This document shows positions 8,398-55,422 of a stretch of 64,000 nucleotides of DNA, piece after piece. The translations under genes were made by a program, and so were the position numbers. Origin of the DNA: a virus; IMG/VR virus record IMGVR_UViG_3300029922_000001, positions 377,499 through 441,498 of that record; one strand, 5' to 3'. The notes beneath the pieces were generated by a model. That model ran no database searches. It was not told the DNA's origin and saw only the letters and a list, made by a program, of their open reading frames with translations. Numbering within the stretch: the stretch's first letter is position 1; each line of letters starts with the position of its first letter.

Positions 8398-8472
8398 ATG
8401 ACACAAAACGCCCACAAACTAATAGTAATGGGAATTAAAACCAACAAAACATATAAGGAAATAAAAATATAA
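8398..8472 (+). CDS. Leader ORF upstream of RNA ligase 2, 24 aa
   Basis: ATG 5 nt after TATAAT (8387-8392; upstream TTCCCAATA resembles the class A box). It ends in TAATG shared with the ligase start (8470-8474), so ligase translation is probably coupled to this leader. The peptide is Lys/Asn-rich with no recognisable domain. Confidence 0.55.
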   Translation: MTQNAHKLIVMGIKTNKTYKEIKI

Positions 8473-9494
8473 TGATCAAGTTTTTGGAATATCCGTCAAT
8501 CGAACAATTTCGCTCCGTAATTAAAGATTTTAGTCAGGCTGAATTTATTGGTTTAGATGAAGATGGAAATAAAGTTTATGATCGCACTAAACCTAAGCCA
8601 ATTGTTACTTTTAGAGGGACAGTCAAGCTTCACGGAACCAATAGTTGCGTTGCATATCATAATGGTGAAATTGCAATTCAATCTCGTACACAAAATATTA
8701 CACCAGAGAAAGATAATGCTGGATTTGCTTCATTTGTAATGCAACATAAAGAAGCGTTTTTGAATATTTTTGATCAAATTTTAACAAATCATCCTACGGA
8801 AAAAACGATTTATATGTACGCCGAATGGTGCGGTGGCAACATTCAAAAGGGTGTAGCCATTGCTAACCTTCCTAAATCTTTCTTTATCTTTGATATTTGT
8901 ATTTCTGATACAAATGAAGAAGAGATTACTCGTGAGTGGATTGATATTACTCCATATAGAGATATTGATAATGGTATTTATAATATTTTCGATTATCCTA
9001 ATTGGACTATGGATATTGATTTTAATAACCCAGCTTTAAAACAAAATGATCTAATTGATATTACAATTGGAATCGAAGATGAATGCCCAGTTGGTAAAGC
9101 TTTTGGCTTCTCAGGTACGGGTGAAGGTGCTGTATGGTCAGCAATTCATAATGGAAAGCGTTATATCTTTAAGGTTAAAGGTGAAAAGCACTCAGTAAGT
9201 AAAGTAAAAACCTTAGCTAGTGTAGACGTTGAAAAGCTTAACGGAATTAATGAATTCATTGATTATGCTGTTACCGAAAATCGACTAGATCAAGCTATTG
9301 ATACTGTCTGTAAAAATAGTCTAGATATTCAAAAAATGGGTGATATCATTCGTTGGGTAATGGCAGATGTAATTAAAGAAGAAACCGACACATTAGAATC
9401 TAATGGACTTACTACTAAAGATGTTACTAGTAAAATCGCAGAAAAAGTTCGTAAAATGGTTAGTCTTCGATTGGATAAACAAAGCGGTTTATAA
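8472..9494 (+). CDS. RNA ligase 2 family (T4 Rnl2-like)
   Basis: 340 aa ATP-dependent RNA ligase that would seal 3'-OH/5'-phosphate nicks, preferably in duplex RNA. Nucleotidyltransferase motifs are all present: motif I KLHGTN with the adenylated Lys52, motif III AEWCGG, motif IV GEGAVW and motif V FKVKGEK, followed by a C-terminal helical domain as in Rnl2. Length agrees with T4 Rnl2 (334 aa). Start overlaps the upstream leader ORF as TAATG. A second ligase (25272) and an RlaP-like gene (38030) make an RNA-repair role likely. Confidence 0.93.
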   Translation: MIKFLEYPSIEQFRSVIKDFSQAEFIGLDEDGNKVYDRTKPKPIVTFRGTVKLHGTNSCVAYHNGEIAIQSRTQNITPEKDNAGFASFVMQHKEAFLNIFDQILTNHPTEKTIYMYAEWCGGNIQKGVAIANLPKSFFIFDICISDTNEEEITREWIDITPYRDIDNGIYNIFDYPNWTMDIDFNNPALKQNDLIDITIGIEDECPVGKAFGFSGTGEGAVWSAIHNGKRYIFKVKGEKHSVSKVKTLASVDVEKLNGINEFIDYAVTENRLDQAIDTVCKNSLDIQKMGDIIRWVMADVIKEETDTLESNGLTTKDVTSKIAEKVRKMVSLRLDKQSGL

Positions 9495-10641: not shown

Positions 10642-10705
10642 ATCCCCAATAGGAGAATTAGAGGTATACTCTAGACAACACAATCAGGAAAATCTTCAAG
10701 AAAGC

Positions 10706-10734
10706 TTGACAAAAGACTTCAAGATAGGTATAAT
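10706..10734 (+). promoter_or_regulatory. Perfect sigma-70 consensus promoter for the first RNA unit
   Basis: TTGACA (10706-10711), 17 nt, TATAAT (10729-10734). A class A promoter (10642-10670) lies just upstream. No protein start follows; predicted transcription start about 10741, 18 nt before the tRNA-like fold. Confidence 0.9.
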
Positions 10735-10758
10735 GAATGAGTAAGAAAGAAAGCAAGC

Positions 10759-11022
10759 GCCCGATAGCTTGGGTTAACGCAGACTTAACAAGTAGATGTC
10801 TATATTGATTCACTCATTGCGCAATGAGAAGAATAACGGGACACGCTGAATGGAAAATAGATAACTGAGATTAACACAGTTATTTATAAAGAAGACAGTA
10901 GCATAAAGAGAAAGCAAGTGAGGCTTAGAGTACGTAATGTTAATCACCCTCTAAGATAATGAGTAAGTAACGTAGTGGTGTTTGGTGAGTTTGATGTGTA
11001 GGTTCGATGCCTACATCGGGCT
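10759..11022 (+). ncRNA. tRNA-like RNA with about 200 nt inserted in the anticodon arm
   Basis: 5' acceptor strand GCCCGAT (10759-10765) pairs perfectly with ATCGGGC (11015-11021), preceded by a T-arm GTAGG-TTCGATG-CCTAC (10998-11014). A D-loop-like TTGGGTTAA follows the 5' strand. CAGAC (10780-10784) can pair with GTTTG (10989-10993) as an anticodon stem, but about 204 nt separate them, containing hairpins CTCATT/AATGAG, ATAACTG/CAGTTAT and CTTAGAG/CTCTAAG. Either an intron-interrupted tRNA (joined anticodon not assignable) or a tRNA-shaped structural RNA. I could not place a convincing group I core. Confidence 0.6.
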
Positions 11023-11026
11023 CGCG

Positions 11027-11722
11027 TTAAATATGTCTATTGTAAATATTTTTAATTAAATTGTTTACAATAGACCAATATTCATCTTTATGAGATTGAG
11101 TTAAGTGTTTGCATTTAGATGAATCTATAGTACAAAATTCTATTCCATTTTCATTACATAAAATAGATTTTTGTTTGTCATTATTTTGAATTTTATTCAA
11201 TTTATCTTGCCCGTAAATTGGTTCATAATGGAAAATACCATTAAGTTCAATAGCTAATTTCAGTGTTGGAAAATAAAAGTCTAATTCTGAATCAATCGCC
11301 TTATGTTTATTGTATTCACAATTCAACTCTGGGTAATGTAATTGTATTTGTTCTTCAAGATAAACCTCTAATTTAGATCGTCTATTGCCATGTGTTTTGT
11401 TTTTATTGTTGTAGGTGGTGGCGCAACTATGATTACAGAAAAATCTTCCAGTATTTGATTTTTTTATTGCTCCTAATCTTACTGTTATTTTTTTACTACA
11501 ACATGAACATTCTTTAGGAACTCTATATTTTATACTTTTTTGTGATGTCATGCACCTTGTAGAACAATAAAGTGGTTGATTTCTTTTAAGAGTTTTATTT
11601 ATTTGAGATTTCTTTCTTATAAAATATAAATTACAAGCATAACAAATTAATTCAATTTGAGGATCACCTTTAAATTGATTTAAATATTCTATTGATATAT
11701 TATTAGATAATGGAGTGTTCAT
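11027..11722 (-). CDS. Vsr-like (EDxHD) homing endonuclease with zinc ribbons
   Basis: 231 aa, one of two minus-strand genes seen. N-terminal half has Cys pairs (CYAC, CSTRC, CSCC, CNHSC) that look like zinc-binding MYM/HNH-associated ribbons. C-terminal half has the Vsr-like fold motifs: RSKLEVYLE, ELDFYFP, LAIELNGIFHYE and NNDKQK, matching the EDxHD homing nucleases of phages. It should cut DNA site-specifically to copy itself into related genomes. It ends 5 nt from the 3' end of the tRNA-like RNA and lies between two RNA units, a typical insertion site. No class A promoter on its strand. Confidence 0.88.
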   Translation of the reverse strand: MNTPLSNNISIEYLNQFKGDPQIELICYACNLYFIRKKSQINKTLKRNQPLYCSTRCMTSQKSIKYRVPKECSCCSKKITVRLGAIKKSNTGRFFCNHSCATTYNNKNKTHGNRRSKLEVYLEEQIQLHYPELNCEYNKHKAIDSELDFYFPTLKLAIELNGIFHYEPIYGQDKLNKIQNNDKQKSILCNENGIEFCTIDSSKCKHLTQSHKDEYWSIVNNLIKNIYNRHI

Positions 11723-11765
11723 AAATCTATCTTCTTAAAATAATCGAAGATTCCTTTTCGATTCC

Positions 11766-11794
11766 TTGACAGAGTATGAAAAACGAGGTATAAT
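11766..11794 (+). promoter_or_regulatory. Perfect sigma-70 consensus promoter for the second RNA unit
   Basis: TTGACA (11766-11771), 17 nt, TATAAT (11789-11794). Predicted start about 11801, with no ORF start near it. The first transcribed bases (ATCCATAAGCC) also follow the TATAAT upstream of the gene at 27802. Confidence 0.9.
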
Positions 11795-11985
11795 ACATCC
11801 ATAAGCCAACGAGATAAATATGGTCAAGTTCCGAAATGGGAACCGGAAAGGCTAATTGCATTACCTTCATCGGGTACGAGACGGATATATATACTACGTT
11901 GATGGTAGGATGAAATTTATTTCATGAATTAGGCTGAACTCCTAATGTATATAATAGGAAAGCTGAAATAATCTTTCCTGCGCAC

Positions 11986-12084
11986 GAGAAAGAAAGCTAT
12001 AAGTGGTACATAGAAAGCGCAGAAGTTTCTCTTTAAATTCAATAGAAAAAGAAGAGTGTATAGGTTCGATTCCTATCTTTCTCA
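11986..12084 (+). ncRNA. tRNA-like fold with expanded anticodon region
   Basis: Acceptor GAGAAAG (11986-11992) pairs with CTTTCTC (12077-12083), discriminator A. D-arm-like CTAT-AAGTGGTAC-ATAG with the GG of a D-loop, and a perfect T-arm ATAGG-TTCGATT-CCTAT (12060-12076). TTTCT can pair with AGAAG around a 19-nt loop instead of 7, and the D-to-anticodon linker is about 13 nt too long. An alternative CTGCGC/GCGCAG pairing competes with the acceptor. No anticodon can be assigned. Confidence 0.5.
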
Positions 12085-12093
12085 CGAGAAAAT

Positions 12094-12182
12094 GGGCGTT
12101 TGCCGAAGTTGGTTAACGGCAGTTCCACTATGACATAAAGTTGTAGTGGAGCTGATCAGGGGTTCGAGTCCTCTAGCGCCCA
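12094..12182 (+). tRNA. tRNA-like gene with 21-nt anticodon loop (anticodon undetermined)
   Basis: 89 nt. Acceptor GGGCGTT/AGCGCCC, D-arm GCCG-AAGTTGGTTAA-CGGC, anticodon stem GTTCC/GGAGC, variable loop TGATC, T-arm AGGGG-TTCGAGT-CCTCT, discriminator A12182; CCA not encoded. All spacings are those of an ordinary tRNA except the anticodon loop, 12127-12147, which is 21 nt and can fold on as ACTA/TAGT, giving one long helix capped by CATAAAG. It therefore carries 14 extra nt and lacks a normal U33 context. May be a tRNA with a tiny intron, a decoy, or a tRNA-shaped domain of the larger RNA. Confidence 0.6.
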
Positions 12183-12252
12183 CTCCGAGTTGTAACGATG
12201 TCGTAAACCTGTTTAAATGGTAACATACTGGAACGATTTAACGGACAATTCC

Positions 12253-12415
12253 GAGAGGGAAGAATATATAAGCAGTTAGTTAATGGTTATAATAGCATAA
12301 AGTAAGCATGAAGCAATTCATGGGTGAAAGCAGTAGTGAGTTAGAGTCTCAATTATATATTTGTTTAGTAAAGTAGAATTTTAATACAGATTAGTTCGAA
12401 CCTACCCTCTCTCCA
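12253..12415 (+). ncRNA. Possible third tRNA-like fold ending in CCA
   Basis: GAGAGGG (12253-12259) can pair with CCCTCTC (12405-12411), followed by T and an encoded CCA (12413-12415). The TTCGAAC loop (12395-12401) has only a 3-bp stem that abuts the acceptor, so the T-arm is defective. About 145 nt lie between the arms. Weak; may be chance complementarity inside the structured RNA. Confidence 0.3.
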
Positions 12416-12457
12416 TTTAAAATCCCCCAGCAGACATATTTAAGGTATACTATAATC

Positions 12458-25271: not shown

Positions 25272-26324
25272 ATGTTTAATGTAGAAAATCTTGAGAAAAT
25301 GGTTACTGAGGGATATATTCACAAGATTCCTCATGAAAATGGATTATATCATCTATTAAATTATACGCCTTTGGCTGCGTTCAAAAAGGTGTGGAATTTT
25401 GAAACTCTTAATAGTCGTGGTACGGTTATTGATAATGAATACAATATCATTTCAAAACCTATGGAAAAATTTTTTAATGATTTCGAAGTCACTGAAGGTT
25501 TAATTCCTTATCATCTTCCATTTGATGCATTTACAAAATTGGACGGTTCTTGTATCATTGTGAGACGATTAGGTGATGAACTTCTTGTGAACACTCGTGG
25601 CTCATTTAAATCACCGCAATCACAAATGGCTCATTTATTGTTAAAAGAAAAGTATAACATTAATGATTTTGATCCAAATTACACTTATATTTTCGAATAT
25701 ATCGGGTTAGAAAATCGTATTGTGGTGTTATATAAAGAAAGCGATGTTGTTCTTTTAACAATGTATGATATGCGAACATTAGAAGAAGTTGAATATGATC
25801 AATTCCCTAAACATTTCAATATTGTTAAGCGATATGATGGTCTTGATATTGAAACAATGAAATCATTAGACATTCCAAATGAAGAAGGTTTTGTTGTTAG
25901 ATTTTCTAACGGTTTCCGTATGAAACTGAAGATGAAAACTTATATGTCACTTCATGGAATTGTTACAGGATTGAGTTCTAGAAAAGTTTGGGAATTAATG
26001 AAAGATGGAAAATCTCTAGAAGAAATTGCATCTGCTTTACCAGATGAATTTTATGAATTCGCAACTAAAACAAAAACACAACTTCAGGATAAGTTTGATG
26101 CAATTGAAAGCAAGGTGCAGATTGCTCAGATGGGACTTGCGTTCGCAGGTTTAACTGAGCGAAAGGATAAAGCATTGTGGATTCAGGCTAATGCTAAGGA
26201 TGTTGCACCATACATGTATGCATGGCTTGATGGTAAGGATTTCACCGCTGGTATTTGGAAGTCAATCTATCCTCCATATATCAGCCCTTTTGAAGAAAGA
26301 GCTAAGTTAACAGGAGAGAACTAA
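25272..26324 (+). CDS. RNA ligase 1 family (T4 RnlA-like)
   Basis: 350 aa. Nucleotidyltransferase motif I KLDGS with the adenylated Lys89, upstream LNSRGTVI, motif III-like YIFEYIG, motif IV EGFVVRF and motif V KLKMKTY, followed by a C-terminal helical domain typical of T4 RNA ligase 1. It would join 3'-OH and 5'-phosphate ends of single-stranded RNA, notably cleaved tRNA anticodon loops. Class A promoter (TATACT 25216-25221) with a leader of about 45 nt, longer than most. Confidence 0.93.
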   Translation: MFNVENLEKMVTEGYIHKIPHENGLYHLLNYTPLAAFKKVWNFETLNSRGTVIDNEYNIISKPMEKFFNDFEVTEGLIPYHLPFDAFTKLDGSCIIVRRLGDELLVNTRGSFKSPQSQMAHLLLKEKYNINDFDPNYTYIFEYIGLENRIVVLYKESDVVLLTMYDMRTLEEVEYDQFPKHFNIVKRYDGLDIETMKSLDIPNEEGFVVRFSNGFRMKLKMKTYMSLHGIVTGLSSRKVWELMKDGKSLEEIASALPDEFYEFATKTKTQLQDKFDAIESKVQIAQMGLAFAGLTERKDKALWIQANAKDVAPYMYAWLDGKDFTAGIWKSIYPPYISPFEERAKLTGEN

Positions 26325-38029: not shown

Positions 38030-38734
38030 ATGAATGTCGTACACTGTTCCCTTGTTGGTAGTCGAATGCATGGATTAAATACCGAAAATTCTGATTATGA
38101 TTATCGAACGATTTATAAAATGGATCTGAAAGATATTCTTGATCCTTTTATTAAACCTGAAGAAAAAAAGGTATTAGAAGATGGACAAGATGTTGAAGAA
38201 TTTGAATTAAGGCATTTTTTGAAGATGTTATGTGGAGGCAACGGTACCGCATACGAAATCCTTTGGAGTGATCAATACACAACGTCACCAGACTTTCAAG
38301 TATTCAAAGACAATAAGCACTGGTTCTTGAATACAAAGGGTATCTGTAATGCTCATATTGGTTATGCCGATTCTCAGCTAGAAAACTTTTTAGAGAAAGT
38401 CGAAAAAGATCCTACCGCATTAGATAAGTCTAATGCAAGGAATCGAATTCGAAAAGCTTCTGTAGCTGGTATCCGTATTCTATGTCAAGCAGAACAGTTG
38501 CTATTGACAGGTGATTTTGCACCAAAGATTGCTGACTATAATAAGAATGTAGCAGATTATCTATTGGAACAGAAGTACACTCCTGATGATCAGATTAATG
38601 CAGATTTTATCACTAGGAATATTGAGATAATCGAAGGACTGAAATTTGATGTAAAGAAACTCCATGAGAATGTTCCTGTAGTTCTGCCTCAATATGATCA
38701 GATTGTTGAAGCTTTGGTCGCAATTTATTCATAA
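38030..38734 (+). CDS. RlaP-like nucleotidyltransferase
   Basis: 234 aa. GSRMHGL (10-16) followed by SDYDYR (21-26) is the GSxxHG/DxD active site of the polymerase-beta nucleotidyltransferases typed as RNA-ligase-associated (RlaP). C-terminal helical part with AGIRILCQAEQLLLTG. Expected to add a nucleotide to RNA or protein; in phages it co-occurs with RNA ligases, as here (8472, 25272). ATG 9 nt after TATAAT (38015-38020). Confidence 0.87.
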   Translation: MNVVHCSLVGSRMHGLNTENSDYDYRTIYKMDLKDILDPFIKPEEKKVLEDGQDVEEFELRHFLKMLCGGNGTAYEILWSDQYTTSPDFQVFKDNKHWFLNTKGICNAHIGYADSQLENFLEKVEKDPTALDKSNARNRIRKASVAGIRILCQAEQLLLTGDFAPKIADYNKNVADYLLEQKYTPDDQINADFITRNIEIIEGLKFDVKKLHENVPVVLPQYDQIVEALVAIYS

Positions 38735-54045: not shown

Positions 54046-54420
54046 ATGAACGTAATTCACACTTATCGACAGAACCTTAAAGAGATTGCCACAGAAGGTG
54101 AAATTCTCATTAGCCTTTGGCGAATGGCTCACCGATCTGACTACATTCCGCGATTTGGTATCGAACACTATAAGCTAACCATTACAGAAATTTGGGTACA
54201 GCTTGATGTTCTCTATCGAACTTATGGTATCAATTATAATCCTGATATTCGATTCCGATATCTGGAAGATTATTACTTTCATGAAATTGATGCAATGAAT
54301 TTTGAGTTCTCAGTTTCTTATGATCCAGATGACGAACTCAGTAAGATAAAGTGTGTGACTACTGCACTTTTATCACAGCTATATGGTAAGCCTTGTTATT
54401 TCTTGATCCCACAAGAGTAA
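54046..54420 (+). CDS. Hypothetical helical protein
   Basis: 124 aa, helical, Tyr-rich, unknown. Class A promoter TATACT 54034-54039. Terminator follows. Confidence 0.82.
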   Translation: MNVIHTYRQNLKEIATEGEILISLWRMAHRSDYIPRFGIEHYKLTITEIWVQLDVLYRTYGINYNPDIRFRYLEDYYFHEIDAMNFEFSVSYDPDDELSKIKCVTTALLSQLYGKPCYFLIPQE

Positions 54421-54426
54421 AAGAGT

Positions 54427-54452
54427 AACCGGAGAGAATCCGGTTTTCTTTT
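54427..54452 (+). terminator. Rho-independent terminator
   Basis: AACCGGA-GAGAA-TCCGGTT hairpin followed by TTCTTTTT. Confidence 0.88.
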
Positions 54453-54480
54453 TGCTTCCACGATTCATAATTCCTATATA

Positions 54481-54519
54481 TTAGTGTATAGATGCATAGG
54501 AATTATGAAAATGGGGAAA
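54481..54519 (+). promoter_or_regulatory. TGTATA-21-TGGGGA element, copy 6
   Basis: TGTATA 54485-54490, TGGGGA 54512-54517. Immediately upstream of a class A promoter that drives non-coding sequence. Confidence 0.75.
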
Positions 54520-54569
54520 TAATGATCAGTAAAAATCCCCAATGATCAAAAATGAGGTATACTAAGATC

Positions 54570-54972
54570 GTACAAGACGGTAAGGTGGCTGAAAGGAAAT
54601 CCCCAAAAGTCTATAAACTAATTTAGAATTGAATACATATAGTAACTTTCAGGGTGTGCGGTGACGGGTTAAAATCGTACACACCTTTCAATGTACACGA
54701 TAAATCTTTGTGGCTCAACGAATAAGATGCAGTGAGAGTTTTATCCCGTTTTAGAATCTACCCTAGTGAATAAGGTCAAAATCCCCAATGAGATGGCAAA
54801 TCTCCCAGATAAGGTAATCCATGTATATCCATGATATGATCGTTGACCACGTATCGTCTAAATGTGTAAAGAACTGATGAAGATCCTTTAGCCCATTTAT
54901 GGGTTATAAATAGAAAGGTAATGAGGGTTGTTGTGCGGCTTAAATCGTATAGTCAGCCCTTTAACTTTTTAT
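54570..54972 (+). ncRNA. Candidate structured non-coding RNA
   Basis: Class A promoter (box 54535-54542, TATACT 54558-54563) followed by no start codon and about 400 nt without a gene. Two hairpins share an internal motif: AGGGTGTG/CACACCTT (54651-54687) and AGGGTTG/CAGCCCT (54924-54960), each containing GTGCGG followed by TTAAAATCGTA or TTAAATCGTA. The second is followed by TTTAACTTTTT and could terminate the RNA. Two further ATCCCCAA words (54599, 54780) lack a -10. Confidence 0.6.
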
Positions 54973-55005
54973 CCCCAATAAAAGAATTACAGGTATACTC
55001 CAATT

Positions 55006-55194
55006 ATGAGATTCAAGACAACAGTTAGCAAGTTTGAGAATGGTGAATGGACTATCATTGAGGGTTCAGTTTATCGTAATTGGTCAAAGCAACCAACTGA
55101 GAAAATGATCAGCAATGCAATTGCCAGTATCTTGAAAGACCTACAGACTATCATTCCTGGTTTTAGGGAATATGGAGTGGAGAAGATCATTTAA
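55006..55194 (+). CDS. Hypothetical protein
   Basis: 62 aa, unknown. Class A promoter TATACT 54994-54999. Confidence 0.77.
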   Translation: MRFKTTVSKFENGEWTIIEGSVYRNWSKQPTEKMISNAIASILKDLQTIIPGFREYGVEKII

Positions 55195-55230
55195 GAATCC
55201 CCAATAGGGGAATTAAGGTATACTCTAAAT

Positions 55231-55390
55231 GTGATGAATAGTTATCATCCAAAAAGATAAGGGTTTAAGTTTATTTTTGCAAAAGCTGTACGTTGGTTAG
55301 TAACCAATAAAAGAATATTCTAATAACTAAAGAAGAAAGATTGATAGAGTAGCGTCTATTAAAATAAATGTATATCCTTATCACATTTTC
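55231..55390 (+). ncRNA. Candidate small non-coding RNA
   Basis: Class A promoter (TATACT 55219-55224, dyad box) is followed by GTGATG, which opens only 8 codons. The next 160 nt fold with a closing stem GATAAGG (55256-55262)/CCTTATC (55376-55382) and inner hairpins TTGGT/ACCAA (55293-55307) and ATAGA/TCTAT (about 55343-55359). No other gene. Confidence 0.5.
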
Positions 55391-55422
55391 CCCAACACTC
55401 AAATTAGAGGTATACTATATCC

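Follow-up and report, generated by a model that had tools for sequence, protein, structure and literature searches.

A predicted early noncoding RNA with a repeated hairpin in an orphan jumbo phage

Comparison with described regulatory RNAs

CsrB/CsrC-type RNAs are sponges that carry repeated protein- or RNA-binding hairpins. Phage-encoded small regulatory RNAs have been reviewed, and the sponge activity of the SprY RNA is covered in the same source (PMC12197685). Descriptions of regulatory RNAs from jumbo phages are scarce.

A candidate for such an RNA was analyzed in a window of 64 kb, the whole stretch of DNA under study, which runs from position 377499 of a virus record to its last base, 441,498, and is thus the final part of a 441-kb genome. 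The candidate has two related hairpins, here called hairpin 1 and hairpin 2. Like the reviewed phage small regulatory RNAs (PMC12197685), it would be a structured, ORF-less phage transcript with its own promoter and an intrinsic terminator, in this case predicted from sequence. Unlike them, it has no sequence relation to any Rfam family and belongs to an early promoter class of a jumbo phage. A repeated hairpin in a noncoding transcript is shared with sponge RNAs, but unlike CsrB/CsrC-type sponges the candidate has two copies only, and the GGA present in CsrA sites is missing from its loops. A CsrB-type protein sponge with multiple GGA-loop hairpins was accordingly rejected, the loops being UGACGGGUUAAAA and CUUAAA. 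Compared with intrinsic terminators, hairpin 2 is alike in having a stem and a U-rich tail, while hairpin 1 has the fold without the tail.

The genome and its early promoter class

The genome is of the tailed-phage type, encoding a terminase, a DnaE-like polymerase, a DnaB-like helicase and a topoisomerase II. Searches of IMG/VR with neighboring proteins, the terminase and the helicase found no close relatives. Among the matches listed, relatives of the terminase reach at most about 27% identity, and the topoisomerase search returned a single contig at 30% identity, which does not contain the promoter described below. Judged by these comparisons, the 441-kb virus is an orphan jumbo phage, without close kin in the collections searched.

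The final ~100 kb of the genome consists of short genes on the + strand, the majority of which have AAAATCCCCAAT-N11-AGGTATACT upstream. The promoter consensus is CCCCAAY-N11-AGGTATACT, and the early region is built as promoter-gene cassettes. Genome-wide, exact CCCCAAYN11AGGTATACT sites number 87 on the + strand and 1 on the - strand, with 0 for the reversed-pattern controls. At 91 of the 130 AGGTATAYT sites the next ATG lies exactly 6 nt past the -10 box, which would place the RNA start at or beside the A of AUG, and the mRNAs of the early cassettes are hence probably leaderless. The label "early" for this class is deduced from the small accessory genes and the clustering of the promoters. 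The exact promoter-plus-ATG pattern is absent from the IMG/VR and GTDB contigs searched, and no contig there has more than one site of the promoter pattern. The stretch from genome position 345750 to 441498 contains about 87 early promoters that are nearly identical and in most cases serve one gene each; expression there is apparently via leaderless mRNAs. A minority of promoters, at 516, 1101, 7691, 38739 and 51055 of the window, carry AGGTATACT and an ATG 6-9 nt on, without the CCCCAAT box, and may form a second promoter subclass.

The predicted RNA unit and its hairpins

The preliminary description placed a class promoter ahead of a gene-free stretch, and both parts of this claim were confirmed. 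The promoter (54535-54563, + strand) belongs to the phage's dominant class and is one of the 87 exact + sites, with a -35 type box ATCCCCAAT and a -10 box TATACT at 54558-54563. Its PWM score ranks 37 of 87, i.e. average strength for its class. GTA occupies the position expected for ATG, so that there is no start codon, and the RNA start is predicted at 54570 from the leaderless genes. Two operator-like TGATCA palindromes (54523-54528 and 54543-54548, together spanning 54523-54548) stand on either side of the -35 box. Even one TGATCA within 45 nt upstream of the -10 element is found in just 1 other of 88 promoters, and the pair may be an operator that gives the RNA unit its own regulation, distinct from that of the other early units. 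A 14-bp perfect inverted repeat with an 18-nt spacer (54464-54509), among the four longest perfect ones of the window, lies immediately upstream of the promoter.

Among ORFs that begin no more than about 60 nt from the -10 box, the longest has 13 codons, and codon-usage scores reveal no coding frame in the RNA region comparable to the neighboring gene; the unit at 54570-54970 is without coding capacity. With ORFs of at least 40 aa considered on both strands, 54421-55005 (585 nt) is the largest ORF-free stretch of the window, and the second largest, 12086-12457, contains a tRNA-like gene. An intrinsic terminator at 54427-54455 on the + strand closes the upstream gene (54046-54420) and separates it from the RNA unit. 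On the other side, the next early promoter (54971-54999, + strand), serving gene 55006-55194, has its -35 box directly abutting the terminator tail of the unit. Given the upstream terminator and the next gene's own promoter, 54570-54970 on the + strand is likely a real and well delimited separate noncoding transcription unit of about 400 nt; it lacks any ORF behind the promoter, shows no coding signal and matches no Rfam family.

The pair of GTGCGG...TTAAA(A)TCGTA sequences reported earlier does occur twice, 277 nt apart from start to start, and nowhere else in the 441 kb, where the closest other sites differ at 3 positions and appear random; no third copy of the hairpin is present in the phage's own genome. 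The pair had been described as a common loop in different stems, which requires correction, because GUGCGG pairs with UCGUA(Y) in both copies and forms the apical half of one bulged hairpin. The common sequence is thus the upper stem itself together with UUAAA(A) on the 3' side of the loop. Hairpin 1 (54651-54686, + strand) is composed of AGG/CCU, the bulged A54683 and GUGUGCGGU/AUCGUACAC, with GUGCGG at 54656-54661, UCGUA at 54675-54679 and a poor U-tract. Hairpin 2 (54923-54961, + strand) is composed of GAGGGUUG/CAGCCCUU, the bulged U54953, UUGUGCGG/UCGUAUAG and the loop CUUAAA, followed by UUUAACUUUUU.

Both hairpins have 8 common apical pairs, a single 3'-side bulge in the same register (A54683, U54953) and a lower stem beneath. 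Pair probabilities are 0.94-0.98 for the apical helices and the lower helix of hairpin 2. In a comparison of these two hairpins only, with structures predicted from the same sequences, 7 of the 11 comparable pairs are identical, 1 is changed on one side (G-C to G-U) and 3 are changed on both sides with pairing kept (G-C/U-G, G-C/U-A, A-U/U-G), while exchanging the arms between the hairpins leaves pairing at just 8 of 11, with 3 lost. The hairpins look like diverged copies of one hairpin, and their common fold and apical sequence, set against two-sided changes in the lower stem, are compatible with selected binding sites. A genome-wide scan for repeated hairpins gave 216 pairs; among the matches listed, most are tandem repeats, protein repeats or the promoter itself.

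The suggestion that the second hairpin is a terminator agrees with its fold (z = -4.9) and the U-rich tail UUUAACUUUUU, and hairpin 2 is likely an intrinsic terminator; a simple terminator scan did not list it. Below it an outer stem GAAAGGU/ACUUUUU (54913-54970, + strand) can form, and the stretch 54880-54972 folds with z = -5.3. Hairpin 1 alone folds with z = -1.5, and the RNA body without hairpin 2 (54570-54872) folds no better than shuffles (z = -0.6). The local self-similarity of the 404-nt stretch is 32, a score matched by 1 of 300 dinucleotide shuffles. The same score is reached by about 10% of the window's 404-nt stretches (42/424, promoters masked), so that the repeat alone is modest evidence. 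What is unusual about the repeat is the matching hairpin fold and its place in the one long ORF-free promoter cassette.

Rfam covariance models, including ROOL, GOLLD, 6S, tmRNA, RNase P, group I introns and others, gave no match at the gathering threshold and chance-level matches only at a permissive threshold (E up to 5). Blastn of the region against INPHARED phages found no match. Neither INPHARED phages nor IMG/VR yielded a relative of the RNA region, and GTDB contigs yielded none of the promoter. The hairpin pattern gave 14 single matches in IMG/VR, in unrelated contexts and judged to be chance. A tRNA or tmRNA gene was rejected, since ARAGORN, with intron-containing genes allowed, found nothing in 54400-55420. 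Complementarity of the RNA to the 5' ends of the leaderless mRNAs does not exceed that of shuffles, and this search for antisense pairing yielded no target.

Interpretation of the gene-less cassettes

The promoter, the missing coding capacity, the repeated hairpin and the terminator are read directly from the DNA. The best single guess, to which a probability of about 0.45 is given, is a noncoding phage RNA of about 400 nt that would be expressed early and has a duplicated hairpin, most likely recognized by a protein, with a regulatory or titrating role; that an old cassette has decayed is almost equally likely. We infer that the RNA is transcribed, stable and bound by something. The phage-specific early promoter would start it at about 54570 and hairpin 2 would end it near 54970, giving an RNA that bears two diverged copies of the bulged hairpin GUGCGG-loop(UUAAA)-UCGUA. 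A phage or host protein would recognize the hairpins, the transcript would thereby act early in infection as a small RNA with a regulatory or titrating function, and hairpin 2 could double as terminator and 3' end protection. That the promoter class can drive noncoding RNA is indicated by the early promoter at 10662, which is without an ORF and leads into a tRNA-type RNA region. Of the proposal of a promoter-driven noncoding RNA, the sequence gives good support to a + strand transcript that ends at hairpin 2, and the hairpins may be selected binding sites. It is doubtful that the locus represents a new family of jumbo-phage early regulatory RNA, with the duplicated GUGCGG-UUAAA-UCGUA hairpin as a dedicated site for a phage or host RNA-binding protein and a specially regulated, TGATCA-flanked early promoter.

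A quite possible alternative is that the unit descends from one or two former promoter-gene units that lost their genes, of which the first promoter and the last terminator survive, perhaps still transcribed into a functionless RNA. A AAATCCCCAA box without a -10 box (54597-54606, + strand) is a possible promoter relic, as is GTCAAAATCCCCAATGA (54775-54791, + strand), which repeats 16 of the 17 bases of the intact promoter start (54529-54545) and has no -10 box at the right distance. The region thus holds two ATCCCCAA boxes without -10 boxes, against about 20 in the whole 441 kb on both strands; orphan boxes being so few, these two look like promoter relics, and a pair in about 400 nt is unexpected (estimated Poisson probability about 2e-4). 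They suggest that at least part of the RNA unit is a decayed cassette, and the promoter-to-promoter distance of 436 nt equals an ordinary gene cassette length. Yet promoter and 5' region are both intact, no remnant of a coding frame is detectable, pairing is kept in both hairpins, and similarity to the rest of the genome is limited to promoter boxes and short chance-level matches.

It is unlikely that the repeat is a duplicated terminator only, in which one hairpin arose from the other by tandem duplication of a short unit and serves termination, processing or 3' end stability instead of ligand binding. The AGGG...C(C)CUUU flanks and alignable upstream sequence common to both hairpins would fit such an origin, as would the U-rich tail on hairpin 2 and the intrinsic terminator that likewise closes the upstream gene. 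However, the tail of hairpin 1 is just UUU, termination does not call for the degree of conservation seen in the apical sequence, G-U wobbles and UUAAA included, and the sequence from -35 box to hairpin is dissimilar between the supposed units (156 of 500 shuffles were as good). A transcript encoding a very small protein is highly improbable: short frames are present, such as one of 18 codons from the ATG at 54823 or one of about 24 codons that starts with GTG and runs through hairpin 1, but none begins at the conserved leaderless position, coding signal is absent, and on inspection the motif copies lie in different reading frames.

The regular promoter code, with about 87 near-identical copies and mostly one per gene, makes a gene-less cassette conspicuous and offers an annotation-free route to phage noncoding RNAs. 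Should the RNA prove real, the repeated hairpin could be used directly to find the protein that binds it.

A second ORF-less cassette adjoins the RNA unit at 55216-55388, where AGGTATACT is followed after 6 nt by ATG-TGA, a start directly followed by a stop. Its promoter spacer is one base shorter than in the class, and it has no special fold (z = -0.8). At 10662-12420 an early promoter without an ORF leads into a tRNA cluster. In intron mode, ARAGORN predicted there a tRNA-Pro(TGG) at 10759-11023, whose anticodon loop contains a 195-nt insertion, and another tRNA at 12094-12183, which is interrupted by 14 nt. The 195-nt insertion is preceded by T and ends in G, a pattern seen in group I introns, but no Rfam intron model matched it. 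T-arm-like ends were seen by eye near 12085 and 12420, and TTGACA-N17-TATAAT near 10708-10736. The phage region that contains the interrupted tRNAs also encodes two proteins of the RNA ligase family and an RlaP-like nucleotidyltransferase of RNA repair (8472-9494, 25272-26324 and 38030-38734).
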